Origin: a virus
DNA length: 20,116 nucleotides
Direction: 5' to 3' (one strand)
IMG/VR virus record: IMGVR_UViG_3300022865_000056
Coordinates: 1-20,116 of that record
Below, one piece after another: positions 1 to 19,645 of the stretch. Positions within the stretch are counted from its first letter, which is position 1. Every line of letters starts with the position of its first letter. The position numbers were made by a program, and so were the translations under genes. Below the pieces are notes generated by a model. It did no database searches. It worked only from the letters and a program-made list of their open reading frames with translations, and was not told the origin of the DNA.

Positions 1-375
1 TGCTTCGCAGAAAAACAAGGCTATTCAAAATTTGGTTCATACACAGGTAATGGAAATGCTGATGGTACATTTGTGTACACAGGATTTAAACCAGCTTTTG
101 TTATGTTAAAAAAAACAAGTGGTACAGGAAACTGGCAAATGTTTGATGACAAGAGAGTGGGATATAATCCAGACAATGATGTTTTAAGAGCAAATTTAAG
201 TAATACTGAATGCACTAGCTGTGTTAAGATAGATACACTTTCTAATGGTTTTAAATTAAGAAATACAGATGGTGATGGTAATACTTCTGGTGGAACATAC
301 ATCTACATGTCATTTGCAAGTGAGCCTTTCACTACATCAACAACTAATGGTTCTATACCAGCTACAGCTAGATAA
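1..375 (+). CDS. Tail/fibre protein, C-terminal fragment (DUF7483-like domain)
   Basis: The frame is open from base 1, so the N-terminus lies outside the window; 124 residues are visible. The visible part is one compact, aromatic- and glycine-rich beta domain: GYSKFGSYTGNG, then FVYTGFKPAFVMLKK, NWQMFDDKR, GYNPDND, a Ser/Thr-rich stretch, GFKLRNTDGDGN, and a GTYIYMSFASEPF ending. From memory this pattern matches a domain (DUF7483) found at the C-terminus of many marine phage tail or fibre proteins, where it may help receptor binding; that role is inference. The GTG at base 73 is not a real start, because the domain begins upstream of it. The gene ends 55 bases before the neck/tail protein, which fits a tail gene cluster. 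Confidence is good for 'tail-associated' and low for the exact function. Confidence 0.7.
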   Translation, partial: CFAEKQGYSKFGSYTGNGNADGTFVYTGFKPAFVMLKKTSGTGNWQMFDDKRVGYNPDNDVLRANLSNTECTSCVKIDTLSNGFKLRNTDGDGNTSGGTYIYMSFASEPFTTSTTNGSIPATAR

Positions 376-13109: not shown

Positions 13110-14540
13110 CTAAATCCATGACTTTAATTCTTCTCCTAATACTTCAGAAGCAATATCAATCTTTTTACGTAAAGCTTTAACAATCTTTTCATCGACCGTA
13201 TCTTCAGCATTAATATCAACATACGTTACCGGTTTTTTCTGACCTATTCGGTGAGCACGGTCTTCGGACTGTAATCTTTTCTCCAAGTCATATCCGTTAG
13301 AATAGTAAATAACGGTGTTTGCAGCAGTCAAAGTAATGCCATAGCCGCCCGTAGAGGGTGTGCCAACAAAAAACCGACACTTAGGGTCGTCTTGAAATTT
13401 CTTAATATTCGGTTGTCTATCTTCTTTAGGCGTTAGCCCATAATAATCAACCACGGATCCCGGACTATAAACTTTTTCTATTTCTTTAATTATGTTTTTA
13501 ATATCATATTGATAGTGAGCCCAAATAATTGCTTTACCTTCCATATCTTCCAACACAGTTAATAATTCTTTTATTCTATTATTTTCAATAGCTTGAGTTT
13601 GACCATTGTCATCTGTAAAATGACCACAAGTAATTTGATGCAGTCTCATTAATTGAGTTAAAGTATTAACAGTTGTACTTTGTTTACCATTTAAAATAGC
13701 TAACGCTTCTTGTTTCATTTGGTCATACAATTTACGTTGTTCTTTAGATAGACTTATTTGACGTTTAATAAATATTTTATCAGGTAAATCTAGGCAATCT
13801 TCTTTTAATACACGGTAAGAGAAAGGCTTTAATTTGTCAGATAATTCACCTAAATTTTTAAAACCATTAACTAATTGTATTTGACGGCCGGCAATGTTTG
13901 CAGTTTTCATAATAGCATATCTCATTCTAAATGAATAATAAGATTCATGATCTAAATGAAACGGATCTAAAAAATAACATTGACTAAATAAATCTAATGG
14001 ATTTTTAGTTACAGGAGAACCTGTCATAATTCTTCTATATTTAGTTTCTCTACCTAAAGATAAAATATTTTTAGTTCTATTAGCCTGCGGATTTTTAATA
14101 GTAGTCGACTCATCAATAGCCATCATAGTTTCATGACATGATAAAAATTTATTAGCAAAAGCAAAACCTTTTTCGGTACTTAAAGCTTCAACATTCATGA
14201 TAAGAATATGTAAACTTTCACCTCCACTAAATAAAGTATCTAAACTTTCTTGTTGTTTTTTAGTAATATTGGCTTGCCACAATACGGTCACATTCTCTAT
14301 ATGATCAGGTAAATGAGTTGGTAATTCATTACTATACCAAGTACCTACAACTCCTTTAGGAGCGATAATTAAAGCACCATTAACTTTACCTTTATCATAA
14401 AGCATAGCTAAATTATCAATTAATACTTTTGTTTTGCCAGTTCCCATTTCTAAGAAATAAGCATAACTTTCTTTATTCCATGACTTTTCTAATGCAGTCA
14501 TTTGATGATTGTATGGTTTTGTTTTAAATTTATAGTTCAT
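13110..14540 (-). CDS. SNF2-type helicase / ATPase
   Basis: The only minus-strand gene in the window, 476 aa from the ATG at 14540-14538. An upstream in-frame ATG at 14573 would precede the predicted transcription start, so the shorter start with AGAAAGAAG before it is chosen. Motifs in order: a Q-like YNHQMTAL (10-17), Walker A MGTGKTK (32-38), AIDES (141-145) as motif II, MTGSP (172-176) as motif III, and QSEDRAHRIGQ (424-434), the SNF2 motif VI. The protein should be an ATP-driven dsDNA translocase or branch-migration enzyme, as with T4 UvsW-like helicases, acting in recombination or fork repair. It converges with the HNH gene and diverges from the replication genes, with its own promoter. 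The 30-base convergent gap shows no clear terminator. Confidence 0.85.
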   Translation of the reverse strand: MNYKFKTKPYNHQMTALEKSWNKESYAYFLEMGTGKTKVLIDNLAMLYDKGKVNGALIIAPKGVVGTWYSNELPTHLPDHIENVTVLWQANITKKQQESLDTLFSGGESLHILIMNVEALSTEKGFAFANKFLSCHETMMAIDESTTIKNPQANRTKNILSLGRETKYRRIMTGSPVTKNPLDLFSQCYFLDPFHLDHESYYSFRMRYAIMKTANIAGRQIQLVNGFKNLGELSDKLKPFSYRVLKEDCLDLPDKIFIKRQISLSKEQRKLYDQMKQEALAILNGKQSTTVNTLTQLMRLHQITCGHFTDDNGQTQAIENNRIKELLTVLEDMEGKAIIWAHYQYDIKNIIKEIEKVYSPGSVVDYYGLTPKEDRQPNIKKFQDDPKCRFFVGTPSTGGYGITLTAANTVIYYSNGYDLEKRLQSEDRAHRIGQKKPVTYVDINAEDTVDEKIVKALRKKIDIASEVLGEELKSWI

Positions 14541-14558
14541 AATTTTTCTTCTTTCTAC

Positions 14559-14586
14559 TTGACAAGATAACATTTATAACTATATT
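14559..14586 (+). promoter_or_regulatory. Sigma70-like promoter, rightward (replication module)
   Basis: TTGACA (14559-14564, perfect consensus), a 16-base spacer and TATATT (14581-14586, five of six). The expected start is near 14593, next to the ATG at 14594. The resulting message would begin at, or almost at, its first codon. Very good hexamers in a phage suggest recognition by host polymerase early in infection; that timing is inference. Confidence 0.6.
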
Positions 14587-14591
14587 GTCAA
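14564..14591 (-). promoter_or_regulatory. Sigma70-like promoter, leftward (SNF2 helicase)
   Basis: On the minus strand: TTGACA (14591-14586, perfect consensus), a 16-base spacer, then TATCTT (14569-14564, four of six). Transcription would begin near 14557, leaving about 17 bases before the helicase ATG at 14540, with room for its AGAAAGAAG ribosome site. It overlaps the rightward promoter nearly completely, so both cannot be occupied by polymerase at the same time. Confidence 0.5.
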
Positions 14592-14593
14592 GC

Positions 14594-14950
14594 ATGAAAG
14601 AAAATAAAGTTTATGTCATTCAAACAATTGCTGGTACTGCAGAAGGTAGACCTAAAATAAATATTATGGGCGCATCAAAATATGGTGAGTTTGTTTTTTT
14701 ATTACCGGAACTTTCTCAAATAATATTTTCTCCTGGTCCATTAATTTTTAAACTTAGAAAAGCTTTAAAAGATTTTACGACAGAAGATCATTTATTATTA
14801 ACTGGAGATCCTGCAATTATTGGTGTGGCCTGTTCGATAGTTTCTGACATGACTAACGGTAAATACAATTTACTAAAATGGGATAAACAAGAAAGACAAT
14901 ATTATCCTATTCAAATTAACTTATATGAAAGAGGAAAGATAGATGAGTAA
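14594..14950 (+). CDS. Conserved-type phage protein of unknown function, 118 aa
   Basis: It starts at the first ATG after the divergent promoter; a TTG nine bases upstream, at 14585, lies inside the -10 region and is unlikely. No Shine-Dalgarno is present. The protein is compact and globular: VYVIQTIAGTAEG (6-18), INIMGASKYGEFVFLLPEL (22-40), FKLRKALKDF (52-61), LLLTGDPAIIGVACSIVSD (67-85) and a C-terminal YNLLKWDKQERQYYPIQI. The LTGDPAIIGVA loop and the LKWDKQERQYYPI ending look conserved for a family in marine podoviruses, recalled from memory and without a known activity. As the first gene of the rightward operon it may be an early protein. It overlaps the next gene by eight bases. Confidence 0.75.
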   Translation: MKENKVYVIQTIAGTAEGRPKINIMGASKYGEFVFLLPELSQIIFSPGPLIFKLRKALKDFTTEDHLLLTGDPAIIGVACSIVSDMTNGKYNLLKWDKQERQYYPIQINLYERGKIDE

Positions 14951-15497
14951 TATAGACTTTGAGAAAGACCAAACAAAAATGTTAGGGAAGACTGAAAACA
15001 TTCAGTCACTAGCAGATCAAGTGGAGAAATTAAATTTTTTAGATCAAGAAGTAGAAATACTAGAAAAAAATCTAAAACAAAAAAAGAAAGATTTTGAATA
15101 TCTATCGGGAGAAGTTATTCCAACCATGATGGCTGAGATGGGTTTGTCTCATCTTAAACTTATGGATGGTTCTTCAGTAGATGTAAAACCAAATTACAGC
15201 GCAAACATTACTATTGCTAATAGAGATGCTGCGTTTAACTGGCTTCGTAACAATGGACTAGGAGATATAATCAAAAACGAGATATCCGTATCTTTTGGTC
15301 GCAACGAGGATAACAAGGCCGCTGATTATGCGAACCTTGCAGCAGAGCGTGGGTATCAACCAACACAAAAGTTGAAGGTTGAGCCCATGACTCTCAAAGC
15401 GCTAGTTCGGGAGCGTATTGAAAACGGCAAAGAAATGCCTACCGAGCTTTTCAACGTATTCGTTGGAAATAAAACAACAATAAAAAGGAAACAATAA
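14943..15497 (+). CDS. Coiled-coil phage protein in replication module, 184 aa
   Basis: The ATG has GAGG (14931-14934) eight bases upstream and overlaps the previous gene by eight bases. Residues 20-55 form a charged coiled coil (QSLADQVEKLNFLDQEVEIL), followed by EVIPTMMAEMGLSHLKLMDG (57-76), a beta segment (VDVKPNYSANITI), and AAFNWLRNNGLGDIIKNEIS (96-115). The C-terminal domain holds EPMTLKALVRERIENG and ends with the basic KTTIKRKQ. The family looks familiar from marine podovirus replication clusters, but I know no demonstrated activity. Position between the 118-aa protein and a possible ssDNA-binding protein suggests a nucleic-acid role. Bases of about 15230-15480 use CGT, CGC and CGG arginine codons and GAG, unlike the AGA/GAA-rich first half and its neighbours. 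Confidence 0.75.
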   Translation: MSNIDFEKDQTKMLGKTENIQSLADQVEKLNFLDQEVEILEKNLKQKKKDFEYLSGEVIPTMMAEMGLSHLKLMDGSSVDVKPNYSANITIANRDAAFNWLRNNGLGDIIKNEISVSFGRNEDNKAADYANLAAERGYQPTQKLKVEPMTLKALVRERIENGKEMPTELFNVFVGNKTTIKRKQ

Positions 15498-15499
15498 AC

Positions 15500-16267
15500 A
15501 TGAACCAAGTAATAAAAAAAGAAGAAGCAGGCGCGTTAGCTACAAATATGTTTGAAGCTGATGCAAATCATGGCATAGAAAATATGTCGCAAGAAGACCT
15601 TGCATTACCTTTTCTAAAGGTGTTAGGACAACTATCACCGGAAGTTAATAAGACACATGCAAAGTATAAAGTCGGTGCTGAACCTGGTATGATTTATAAT
15701 ACAGTTAGCGGTCAATTTTTTGATGGCTCTAAAGGTATTGACATTATCCCTGTTCATTATCAAAGACAGTTAGTAGAATGGCAAGATAGGGGAGCCAGTA
15801 CAGGCGCTCCAGTTGCAATTCATAACGCTGAAAGTGATATCATGAGTAAAACAACTCGTGATAAATCTTACAAAGATAGATTACCTAATGGTAACTATAT
15901 CGAAAACACAGCAAATCATTTTGTGCTTATGTTAGGGGATTCACCTACAACAGCATTGATTTCTATGAGAGCTACTCAATTAAAAATTAGTAGAAAATGG
16001 AACTCAATGATGATGGGAATTAAACTACAAGGTAAAAATGGTATGTTTACTCCGCCTACATATAGCCACATTTACAAACTAAAGACTGTTCAAATGTCAA
16101 ATGACAAAGGAACATGGTATGGTTGGGATGTGTCACAGGTAGGTCCGGTATCAGATAAAAGTATCTATGATATGGCTAAAAATTTTGCAGAGCGTGTAAG
16201 CGCAGGTGAGATTGCAGCTAAACCTGAAAATCAAGAACAACCAAAAACAGATAAAATAGTTTTATAA
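15500..16267 (+). CDS. Phage replication-cluster protein, possible ssDNA-binding protein
   Basis: A 255-aa protein with AAGGA upstream of its ATG, two bases after the preceding stop. The N-terminus is helical (EADANHGIENMSQEDLALPF), then LKVLGQLSPEVN (39-50), EPGMIYNTVSGQFFDGSKG (61-79), IDIIPVHYQRQLVEWQDRG (80-98) and SDIMSKTTRDKSYKDRL (112-128). The C-terminal core has NHFVLML (139-145), STxLKxSRKWNSMMM-like residues at 156-172, and FTPPTYSHIYKLKTV (183-197), and a Gln/Glu/Lys-rich tail follows. The alternating beta core plus a flexible tail, and its place just before the primase, agree with an OB-type ssDNA-binding protein, but I see no diagnostic motif. The tail is not strongly acidic, which weakens a T7 gp2.5 analogy. 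Confidence 0.7.
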   Translation: MNQVIKKEEAGALATNMFEADANHGIENMSQEDLALPFLKVLGQLSPEVNKTHAKYKVGAEPGMIYNTVSGQFFDGSKGIDIIPVHYQRQLVEWQDRGASTGAPVAIHNAESDIMSKTTRDKSYKDRLPNGNYIENTANHFVLMLGDSPTTALISMRATQLKISRKWNSMMMGIKLQGKNGMFTPPTYSHIYKLKTVQMSNDKGTWYGWDVSQVGPVSDKSIYDMAKNFAERVSAGEIAAKPENQEQPKTDKIVL

Positions 16268-16279
16268 GTTTCTAGGAAT

Positions 16280-16309
16280 TGGGCGGCGAAGCGAGAGTGG
16301 ATCCGCCCA
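16280..16309 (+). promoter_or_regulatory. GC-rich stem-loop before the primase gene
   Basis: TGGGCGG (16280-16286) pairs perfectly with CCGCCCA (16303-16309) around a 16-base loop. The loop and stem base include GCGAAGC (16286-16292), a sequence known to form an exceptionally stable DNA mini-hairpin. The element stands out in a very AT-rich region, lies 10 bases before the primase ATG, and that ATG has no Shine-Dalgarno. There is no T-tract, so an ordinary rho-independent terminator is unlikely. It may control primase translation, mark a processing site or act as an ssDNA replication element. Confidence 0.65.
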
Positions 16310-16319
16310 TCATAAAATT

Positions 16320-17789
16320 ATGAATGAAATTAAAAACCTAAATAAAGGTCCGCTTACGTATGAGGACTGGTACGATCTTGGCTATACTCTGGTGCCTTGT
16401 GAGGGAGGCAAGCCTACAGTTAAAAAATGGAGTGATGCCGATTTTAAAATAAAGAAAGAAGAATGGAAAAACAAACATTTAGATAAAGAAATAGGATTAA
16501 GATTAGATAACGTAGTTGATTTAGATCTTGATAACACGCGCGCAAAAGTTTTTGCACATAAATATTTAACAAATTGTGGCACTATATCCGGTAGAGAACA
16601 TAACCCTACAAGCCATTATTGGTTTAAAGCAAAATTACCGGCACAGAAATTTTCATTACCAAAAGACCTTGAAAGATATGTTGAACATGCGGCACATGGA
16701 CAAACTTTATGCGAAATAAGAAGTACTGAGACTTGTTATACAATCGTTCCAGGATCATTACATAGTAAACATAGAGAACATGTAAGATGGGAAAAGTATG
16801 CAGGCTTTAATGAATATGTAGGCGACTTAAATAAAATTTTAAGAAAAATATCTTTAGCTACTGCTCTATCAATTTTATATGCACCTAAAGGTCAAAGAGA
16901 TGAATATTGTACAGCTATTGCTGGAGTTTTAATTAAACAAACGGATTGGGACGATACTGAAATCAATGATTTTATTTATGACATTGCAGTAGAATCTAAT
17001 GACGATGAATCTGAAAATAGAAAAAATAAAGGTTCAACAACAAGAAAATCTAAAAAACCATTCGGCATGCCTAAACTTGCAGAAATAATTGAATGCAGGA
17101 TTGAAAGTGTTGCAACAATATTCAGTTGGATAGGCGTTCAAGATAAAGCTTTAGTTGAAGTTAAACAAATAGCGGACGATTCAATAGGAGATATTGTTGA
17201 GTATGGTCAAGATAGATATAAAATACGAGTATCTGGTAATTTAGAAGGCGTAGCATTTACTAAAACTATTACAGTTGATGGACCAACGCTCATGAACCAG
17301 GGAAAATTTTATGATGCGGTTATAATTCAAGCTGAAGTTTGGCTACCTAAAATGAAAGCAGCCCAATTTGAGGAAATAATGAAAATGAAATTTGAATCCA
17401 GAACTAAATCAAAAGACTACGTAGAAGAAGCGGACGAATCTTTTGTATTTAAAAAACATTTTATTAATTATATTAAAATTAAAAAAGCCTTCACAGATAA
17501 AGAGCAATTAGTTAACTATGGGAGTCCTTATTTTAATCAACAAAATAATCAATTAGAATTTAATTTAGATGAATTTGAAAGTTACTTACAAGAACAAAGA
17601 ATAAATCATAAACGAGTAGATCTTGTTTTAAAAATTCAAGACATATTAAAAGCCACTAAAAAAAATGGTAAATACAAAAATAAATCTTTGGTGTCTTGGG
17701 TAATCGATAATCATAAAATTGAAAATGAAGATCTTATGGTAGAAGGAACTAGTGAAGAAGTTAAGGAGGTAAATTCTGAACGAGCCTAG
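16320..17789 (+). CDS. Bifunctional primase-polymerase (AEP/Prim-Pol type)
   Basis: A 489-aa replication primase of the archaeo-eukaryotic type. The N-terminal Prim-Pol domain shows its three metal/nucleotide motifs: VVDLDLDN (65-72, catalytic D67 and D69), SH at 98-99 (TSHYWF), and CEIRS with E132, followed by TIVPGSLH (141-148). Residues about 180-275 are helical (QRDEYCTAIAGVLIKQ), as in the PriCT-like extension that follows such domains. Residues 280-489 show no Walker motifs, so there is no fused helicase; the next gene supplies one. This C-terminal part may bind DNA or partner proteins. The gene follows the stem-loop and has no ribosome site. Its last 14 bases overlap the helicase start, implying coupled translation. 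Confidence 0.85.
   Translation: MNEIKNLNKGPLTYEDWYDLGYTLVPCEGGKPTVKKWSDADFKIKKEEWKNKHLDKEIGLRLDNVVDLDLDNTRAKVFAHKYLTNCGTISGREHNPTSHYWFKAKLPAQKFSLPKDLERYVEHAAHGQTLCEIRSTETCYTIVPGSLHSKHREHVRWEKYAGFNEYVGDLNKILRKISLATALSILYAPKGQRDEYCTAIAGVLIKQTDWDDTEINDFIYDIAVESNDDESENRKNKGSTTRKSKKPFGMPKLAEIIECRIESVATIFSWIGVQDKALVEVKQIADDSIGDIVEYGQDRYKIRVSGNLEGVAFTKTITVDGPTLMNQGKFYDAVIIQAEVWLPKMKAAQFEEIMKMKFESRTKSKDYVEEADESFVFKKHFINYIKIKKAFTDKEQLVNYGSPYFNQQNNQLEFNLDEFESYLQEQRINHKRVDLVLKIQDILKATKKNGKYKNKSLVSWVIDNHKIENEDLMVEGTSEEVKEVNSERA
17763..17778 (+). promoter_or_regulatory. Ribosome site and CTG start of the SF1 helicase
   Basis: AAGGAGG (17763-17769) lies six bases before the CTG at 17776, which is the ideal spacing. 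The frame is closed by TAA at 17770-17772, so only ATT (17773) and CTG (17776) can start upstream of the Walker A. CTG is preferred on spacing. Confidence 0.7.
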
Positions 17790-19452
17790 ATTTATTGCAG
17801 GTCCTCCAGGTACCGGTAAAACTCACAAATTTATTGTGGATACCTATATGAAAGCTTTAGCAAAATATACTCCTGAAAAAATTATAATTTTATCTCACAC
17901 TAATATAGCTGCCAATGAAATTAGAGATGCTATTTTTGATTTAAAAAATTTAAAAAATGAAGAAGGAAATTATACATTTCCACAATTACGAGGAATTACT
18001 AAAAAAGCAATGAAATATAGAGTATGTACTATTCATACTTATTGCAAAAGTAGATTATTAAAAAAAGAAGTGTTTAAGTTACATAATCATAAAGAATTAA
18101 TAAACAAAGATAGTCGTTTTAATCTTCACAGGGAAGATGACATAAAACGTAAACATAGATTTTATAAATACTTATCAGACGCTGACGGACATGGAGAAAC
18201 TTTAGATAAGTATTGGATTAAATGCGATCAAAAATCTTTTGAGCCTTACAGTTTAAAATTGATTAAAGAGTTACTTCCACTTTATGAAAAATATAAAAAG
18301 GATAAAACTCTTTGTGATTTTTCAGATATGGTAAATAATTTTACACGTCAAACGTATAATGAAAAAACTAAACAGTGGGAAGATGACGTAAAAGATCCAG
18401 ATATAGATATGTTAATTATAGACGAATGTCAGGATTGTAATGTACCCCAAAGAAAAGCTATTGATAAAATGGCAAGAAACGTAAAAGAAGGACATTACTA
18501 TTTAGTCGGAGACGCAGATCAAACCTTATTTGAGTATTCAGGATCAGATGCAGAATATTTTCACAACTTAGCTGCAAATCCTTATTACGAATTAAAAAAT
18601 GGTAATAGATGTGGTGAAGCTATTAATACGTATTGTAAATCAATTATAATGGATGTTTGGGATCATTATAAATCTCATAGAGTGTGGACTCCAGCAAAGT
18701 ATAAGAAGGGTCCTAACGAAGACGAAGTTATTAAAGGAAAAGGTTATTATTTACCAGATTTAAAACCATCAGGACATTTAGATAAACTTTTAGATAAAAT
18801 TAAAAATACTGAGGAAACATTTCTATTTACTTATAGAGGAACTCCAAGCGATGTACGTTGTACAGATTTTCTTATAGCACAAGGTATAGAATTTGCTCCA
18901 GTAAGTAAGCCTCCATTTGTAATTAAAAAAGAATTAAGGGCTCACAAATTATGGCCAGATTTTATTAAAGGTATTCCAATGGATCTTACTTTGATAAAAA
19001 ATTTTTGTGAATATTTAAATAAGGATTTGATTGTCGGAGATAGATCTAAAACAGTAGAAACTCTTAAAACATGGATTAAAACAGATTACACTGTAGATTA
19101 TTTAATAGATAAAAAATTATTAAAGTCTAGTTGTAAAGGTCATAAAGATTTTGATCTTATAAGAGCGCCAGTTAACAAACATAAAGAAAGAATGAAATAT
19201 ATAAAAAGGGTTTTACATAACGGTTTTGATTTTGATAAAAAAGTTAGAGTTGAATATGCAAACATTCATACTGTTAAAGGTTTAACATATGATAATGTTA
19301 TTGTTGACGAAACTGTCGTTAATAAAGATCCTTATTTTACTTCACTAAGACTACAATACACTGCATACAGCAGAGGGATTTTTGACTATTGGAGATTAGC
19401 AAAAATGCCCGGAAAATACTTTACAATAGGAAAAAAAAATGAGTGCTTATAA
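17776..19452 (+). CDS. SF1 DNA helicase, UvrD/Dda-like
   Basis: A 558-aa ATP-dependent 3'-5' or 5'-3' DNA helicase; the polarity cannot be told. Starting at CTG 17776, the protein begins MNEPRFIAGPPGTGKT, giving a complete Walker A (9-16). Other motifs follow: Ia HTNIAANEIRDAI (41-53), Ib TIHTYC (85-90), FSDM (182-185), motif II IIDECQD (214-220), motif III VGDADQTLFEYSGS (244-257), GNRCGEA as motif IV, HTVKG (498-502) as motif V and YTAYSRG (528-534) as motif VI. Beginning at the first later GTG, 17836, would remove the Walker A and inactivate it, so the non-ATG start is preferred. It overlaps the primase by 14 bases and DUF3310 by 14 bases. It probably unwinds the fork ahead of PolA. Confidence 0.88.
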   Translation: MNEPRFIAGPPGTGKTHKFIVDTYMKALAKYTPEKIIILSHTNIAANEIRDAIFDLKNLKNEEGNYTFPQLRGITKKAMKYRVCTIHTYCKSRLLKKEVFKLHNHKELINKDSRFNLHREDDIKRKHRFYKYLSDADGHGETLDKYWIKCDQKSFEPYSLKLIKELLPLYEKYKKDKTLCDFSDMVNNFTRQTYNEKTKQWEDDVKDPDIDMLIIDECQDCNVPQRKAIDKMARNVKEGHYYLVGDADQTLFEYSGSDAEYFHNLAANPYYELKNGNRCGEAINTYCKSIIMDVWDHYKSHRVWTPAKYKKGPNEDEVIKGKGYYLPDLKPSGHLDKLLDKIKNTEETFLFTYRGTPSDVRCTDFLIAQGIEFAPVSKPPFVIKKELRAHKLWPDFIKGIPMDLTLIKNFCEYLNKDLIVGDRSKTVETLKTWIKTDYTVDYLIDKKLLKSSCKGHKDFDLIRAPVNKHKERMKYIKRVLHNGFDFDKKVRVEYANIHTVKGLTYDNVIVDETVVNKDPYFTSLRLQYTAYSRGIFDYWRLAKMPGKYFTIGKKNECL

Positions 19453-19645
19453 AAAACAAGTAGGAGGATCACATTATAAAGATATGATTATTCAACCCGC
19501 AGACTTTATTAATAAAAACAAATTACTTTTTGCAGAAGGAAACGCAATTAAATATATCTGTAGACATCAGTCGAAAGGTAAGTTACAAGACATAGAGAAA
19601 GCTATTCACTACTTAGAAATGATAATAGAAAGGGATTACAAATAA
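19439..19645 (+). CDS. DUF3310 protein (T7 gp1.7 C-terminal-like)
   Basis: A 68-aa single-domain protein. The pattern VGGSHYKDMIIQPADFI (8-24), followed by FAEGNAIKYICRHQSKGK (31-48) and IEKAIHYLEMII (52-63), is typical of DUF3310. In T7, the related domain is in gp1.7, a nucleotide kinase involved in dTMP/dGMP phosphorylation. Whether a stand-alone DUF3310 is enzymatic is not established. The ATG falls inside a run of nine A (19431-19439) at the end of the helicase gene, with AGG at 19428-19430 as ribosome site. It lies between helicase and polymerase, so a supply role for DNA synthesis fits the context. Confidence 0.85.
   Translation: MSAYKKQVGGSHYKDMIIQPADFINKNKLLFAEGNAIKYICRHQSKGKLQDIEKAIHYLEMIIERDYK

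Follow-up and report, generated by a model that had tools for sequence, protein, structure and literature searches.

Two interlocked sigma70-type promoters predicted in a compact divergent region between a helicase gene and the replication genes of pelagiphage-type viruses

Introduction

When two divergent genes begin 53 bp apart and near-consensus promoter elements occupy almost the same bases on both strands, the question is whether the arrangement is a regulatory switch, an operator, or simply two promoters packed into little space. We addressed this in an IMG/VR viral record of 20,116 bases, all of which was analysed and is called the window here. Its genes resemble those of the Pelagibacter phages HTVC027P and HTVC023P and of phage 023Pt_psg01, and by this sequence comparison the window is a pelagiphage-type genome fragment, kin to HTVC027P and 023Pt_psg01. 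Pelagiphages are the viruses that infect the commonest bacteria of the ocean. The 53-bp gap, which is conserved among relatives, separates an SNF2-family helicase gene, confirmed as the only family-supported minus-strand gene in the window, from the first gene of a rightward replication operon. The features are as follows.

13110 to 14540, minus strand: SNF2-family helicase gene, starting at 14540
14558 to 14592, no strand assigned: 8-bp inverted repeat, CTTGACAA...TTGTCAAG, made up of two TTGACA boxes and flanking bases
14559 to 14586, plus strand: predicted rightward promoter, with TTGACA at 14559-14564, a 16-nt spacer and TATATT at 14581-14586 (11 of 12 consensus positions)
14564 to 14591, minus strand: predicted leftward promoter, with TTGACA at 14591-14586, a 16-nt spacer and TATCTT at 14569-14564 (10 of 12 consensus positions)
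14594 to 14950, plus strand: Pam3_gp32-like gene, first in the rightward replication operon
14943 to 19645, plus strand: remainder of the operon, encoding Pam3 gp33-like, Pam3 gp34-like and primase-like proteins, a UvrD-like helicase and a DUF3310 protein

The promoter pair

The original prediction of a perfect TTGACA, a 16-base spacer and a good -10 box on each strand was borne out at 14559-14586 (plus) and 14564-14591 (minus). It had also placed each -35 box over the -10 box of its opponent, and this required correction, as each such pair has exactly one base in common (14564 and 14586, respectively), indicating that the boxes abut and are not superimposed. The leftward -10 box carries a TG one base upstream, as in an extended -10 element. 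The two -10 boxes are 11 bases apart, with predicted starts about 37 bp apart, and the pair matches the definition of overlapping divergent sigma70 promoters, namely a -35 and a -10 box with a 16-18 bp spacer on each strand of the same DNA. Dinucleotide shuffling of the 53-nt gap gave sites of 11/12 and 10/12 on opposing strands in 0 of 20,000 trials. Across the window, promoter-like sites occur at the level of chance (79 found, 77.7 expected), so that counts of such sites are uninformative by themselves. An AT-rich stretch inside the UvrD-like gene (18620-18672) also reaches 10/12 on both strands, without TTGACA, probably by chance.

Conservation among relatives

To collect relatives, two scans of viral contigs were run with protein sequence only, a procedure that leaves the sampling unbiased by the gap, and 160 loci were obtained. 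Among these and other loci, 134 entries, including the window, had both flanking genes in divergent orientation, and the compared set consisted of 95 distinct 75-base stretches. Promoters of the TTGAC(A/T)-16..18-TATANN type were present on both strands in 91 of the 95 distinct gaps, as compared with 1 of 4,750 shuffles. The four that failed were L097, L106 and L136, which combine a weak leftward -10 box (e.g. TAACTT, TACCTT) with a TG extension, and L164, from a distant lake phage. The original prediction had named loss of the hexamers in close relatives whose gene order is the same as evidence against it; when this was checked, the promoters were not refuted.

Position by position, the TTGACA and -10 boxes of the two strands were the best conserved and the centre of the spacer varied; TTGACA came near the maximum of 2 bits on both strands. 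The -10 boxes of the relatives are mostly TATATT or TATCTT and not TATAAT, a point that counts against the promoters; in L057, L066 and L068 both strands match the full consensus, TTGACA-17-TATAAT, with a distance of 26. The internal spacers remained at 16-18 in nearly all 95 gaps. The distance from TTGACA to TTGACA was 21/22 bp in 69 gaps and 25/26 bp in 20, and the degree of interlock drifts from an overlap of 1-2 bp to a separation of 3 bp. At least six changes of distance label are forced by well-supported branches of an SNF2 tree, although this was a quick tree and phage mosaicism could make one cassette mimic several independent events.

Phages of the window's clade typically have the interlocked pair. 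A TTGACA pair 25 bp apart is present on both strands in 023Pt_psg01, and the symmetric pair is absent from the lake phage DSL-LC04 and from the cultured, more distant HTVC027P and HTVC023P, the first of which has a helicase 61% identical to that of the window. In its own gap HTVC027P has TATAAT rightward and TTGACT-17-TATATA leftward. It also shares with one relative a conserved TTGACA...TATAGT, which was rejected as a candidate, since it lies in similar, apparently coding sequence.

The leftward -10 box showed a further regularity. Boxes without A at position 4 carried the TG in 29 of 35 cases, and the others in 3 of 42. When independent pairs were drawn from the tree, 7-8 of 9 differed in opposite directions (sign test, median p 0.016), the box having either A4 without TG or a weaker sequence with TG, and essentially never the two together in these contrasts. 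A functioning extended -10 promoter would be expected to show such a trade-off.

Promoter overlap and competition

In some close relatives the two promoters lie apart. Separated promoters were found in three gap sequences belonging to six contigs (L087; L090, identical to L003-L005; and L092). Their gaps are longer, at 109-113 bp, as are those of L088 and L089, and the distance from -35 to -35 is 26 bp. The former TTGACA beside the leftward -10 box has become TTAAGA, the former TGTCAA beside the rightward one has become GCTAAT, and new full promoters are in place (TTGACA-17-TATATT and TTGACA-16-TATATT), so that both genes and both promoters are retained. Hexamers are thus retained wherever a promoter uses them and are lost elsewhere, and the existence of these natural variants shows that the overlap is dispensable.

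Selection keeping both promoters is indicated by their presence in 91/95 gaps, by the TG compensation and by their retention on separation. Taken together, the constancy of the spacers, the low conservation of the exact 8-mer symmetry (below), the separated forms and the TG compensation suggest two real sigma70 promoters, and the same facts argue against both an operator of fixed geometry and a switch that depends on overlap. We therefore consider it highly probable that the gap is a compact divergent region with two interlocked promoters of the host-sigma70 type, in which selection would maintain the promoters and the overlap would be tolerated compaction; both elements are most likely working sigma70 promoters. 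The leftward promoter would drive the SNF2 helicase and the rightward one the gp32-gp33-gp34-primase-helicase operon, and while they overlap one polymerase would fill the whole site, so that the two directions would share it by competition. Judged from the geometry, mutual exclusion of two polymerases is plausible for as long as the promoters overlap.

The original prediction went further and read this exclusion as a simple switch between the helicase and the replication operon. That the promoters must compete if both are active still stands, but exclusion does not appear to be the purpose of the arrangement, because close relatives retain both promoters at a separation of 26 bp. The switch reading, in which overlap was selected because exclusion of the opposite direction sets a fixed ratio of SNF2 to replication operon, or a temporal switch, seems to us unlikely though credible. 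The promoters physically overlap in nearly all relatives and both boxes are near consensus, so that occupancy could suffice for competition, and in Escherichia coli strongly activated bidirectional promoters do compete and repress the opposite RNA (PMC12825309). In the same system, however, interference from steric overlap by itself is slight at basal activity (PMC12825309), and both the drift in interlock and the six contigs that keep both genes and both promoters apart weigh against selection for overlap as such. Neither a switch nor an operator is required to account for the gap, and the overlap resembles genome compaction more than a proven switch.

The inverted repeat

The 8-bp inverted repeat CTTGACAA/TTGTCAAG is unique in the window and was found in 0 of 100 dinucleotide shuffles, and the original prediction had suggested that its exact symmetry could be an operator. 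This did not hold up among the relatives, where the exact 8-bp symmetry was present in 15 of 95 gaps, as compared with 74 for TTGACA on both strands and 91 for TTGAC(A/T) on both strands. The repeat is a by-product of two TTGACA boxes and their flanks, and the near-palindrome arises because each strand requires its own TTGACA and its own TATA-type box at opposite ends.

A dimeric repressor of phage or host origin, bound at the repeat and controlling both genes, could draw on the perfect repeat in the window and on a CTTTC-type sequence conserved outside both -35 boxes, but we judge it very unlikely and rejected it. The base preceding TTGACA differs between the arms in most gaps, and conserved symmetric half-sites at a fixed helical spacing were not found in the 95 gaps, their distance being 21/22 or 25/26 bp while the promoter spacers stay constant; a shift of 4 bp corresponds to a rotation of more than one third of a helical turn. 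The variable distance from the CTTTC/AGAAAG sequence to the -35 box also speaks against a rigid protein site, and the extra, gene-proximal hexamers are lost in the separated forms. That just one promoter works, its counterpart being a relic or a match by chance, is hardly credible, for although AT-rich DNA is rich in promoter-like matches, the near-maximal TTGACA on both strands, the TG compensation at the leftward -10 box and the re-formation of both hexamer pairs on separation all stand against it.

Predicted transcripts

In 86 of 95 gaps the rightward -10 box ends 6-8 nt before the ATG of the gp32-like gene; the distance is 7 nt in the window and likewise in the separated forms. No Shine-Dalgarno sequence was found before this ATG, though several other genes in the window have one. 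Together these two features predict a leaderless or nearly leaderless mRNA, and the rightward transcript of the window, with its ATG 7 nt past the -10 box, is probably leaderless. The leftward SNF2 transcript is predicted to start at about 14556-14557, with a short leader that is rich in purines and about 16 nt long (AGAAAGAAGAAAAATT). Just within each predicted transcript, and outside both -35 boxes, lies a conserved purine-rich AGAAAG element (14541-14557, 14594-14605 and relatives), which falls in the SNF2 leader on one side and in the opening codons of the gp32-like gene on the other.

HTVC027P lacks an RNA polymerase gene and relies on the polymerase of its host (PMC12753301), a dependence that fits host-sigma70 promoters and would by extension apply to the phage of the window. 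An RNA-seq dataset exists for HTVC027P (PRJNA1253180; PMC12753301), and the text of that paper gives neither per-gene values for gp01 and gp87 nor start sites.

Another promoter-like site is conserved in three of the relatives, L169, L170 and L171, about 11 kb downstream of the start of the replication operon. It consists of TTGACA, 17-18 nt and TATAGT or TATATT, before the gene of a small protein whose product starts MTD(I/T)TKYRNVSL and for which a Pfam search returned a sub-threshold match only. In L169 and L171 a divergent ORF begins right beside the -35 box.

Comparison with known systems

The pair belongs to a long-known kind, overlapping divergent sigma70 promoters, and is not a new type of element. 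In tetA/tetR of Tn10 the overlapping divergent promoters are built around repressor operators; the likeness lies in two full sigma70 promoters within a short gap between divergent genes, while at the present locus neither a neighbouring regulator gene nor a conserved operator was found. The bidirectional promoters described by Warman, Grainger and colleagues share with the present pair a pseudo-symmetric DNA and, as predicted here, divergent transcription and the lack of simultaneous binding in both directions. However, that class has one symmetric -10 element and is defined by divergent starts 7-25 bp apart with a shared or reciprocally overlapping -10 (PMC10268837, PMC12825309), whereas the two promoters of the window have separate -10 and -35 boxes and the spacing given above places the pair outside it.

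Pseudanabaena phage Pam3 (L174; ON014755.1) shares four genes and their order with the window, the helicase lying beside gp32. In Pam3 the four (helicase, gp32, gp33 and gp34) all point the same way, with a 4-nt overlap between helicase and gp32, whereas phages of the window type (13110-14950) have the helicase inverted in place with the promoter pair between. A divergent layout is also found in DSL-LC04, HTVC027P and HTVC023P. The helicase is thus flipped relative to Pam3, with no polarity of the change implied.

Biological significance

A bolder proposal is that, in an abundant group of ocean phages with no RNA polymerase of their own, the interlocked pair acts as a protein-free competition device, which would fix the ratio of SNF2 to the leaderless operon and whose interlock lineages would tune or disengage; we regard this as quite unlikely. 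A further prediction is that the first gene of the replication operon is leaderless. The series of promoters interlocked at 21/22, interlocked at 25/26 and separated, all between the same pair of genes, constitutes a ready-made set for tests of polymerase competition, and the value of the locus lies in a useful annotation together with this natural test series.
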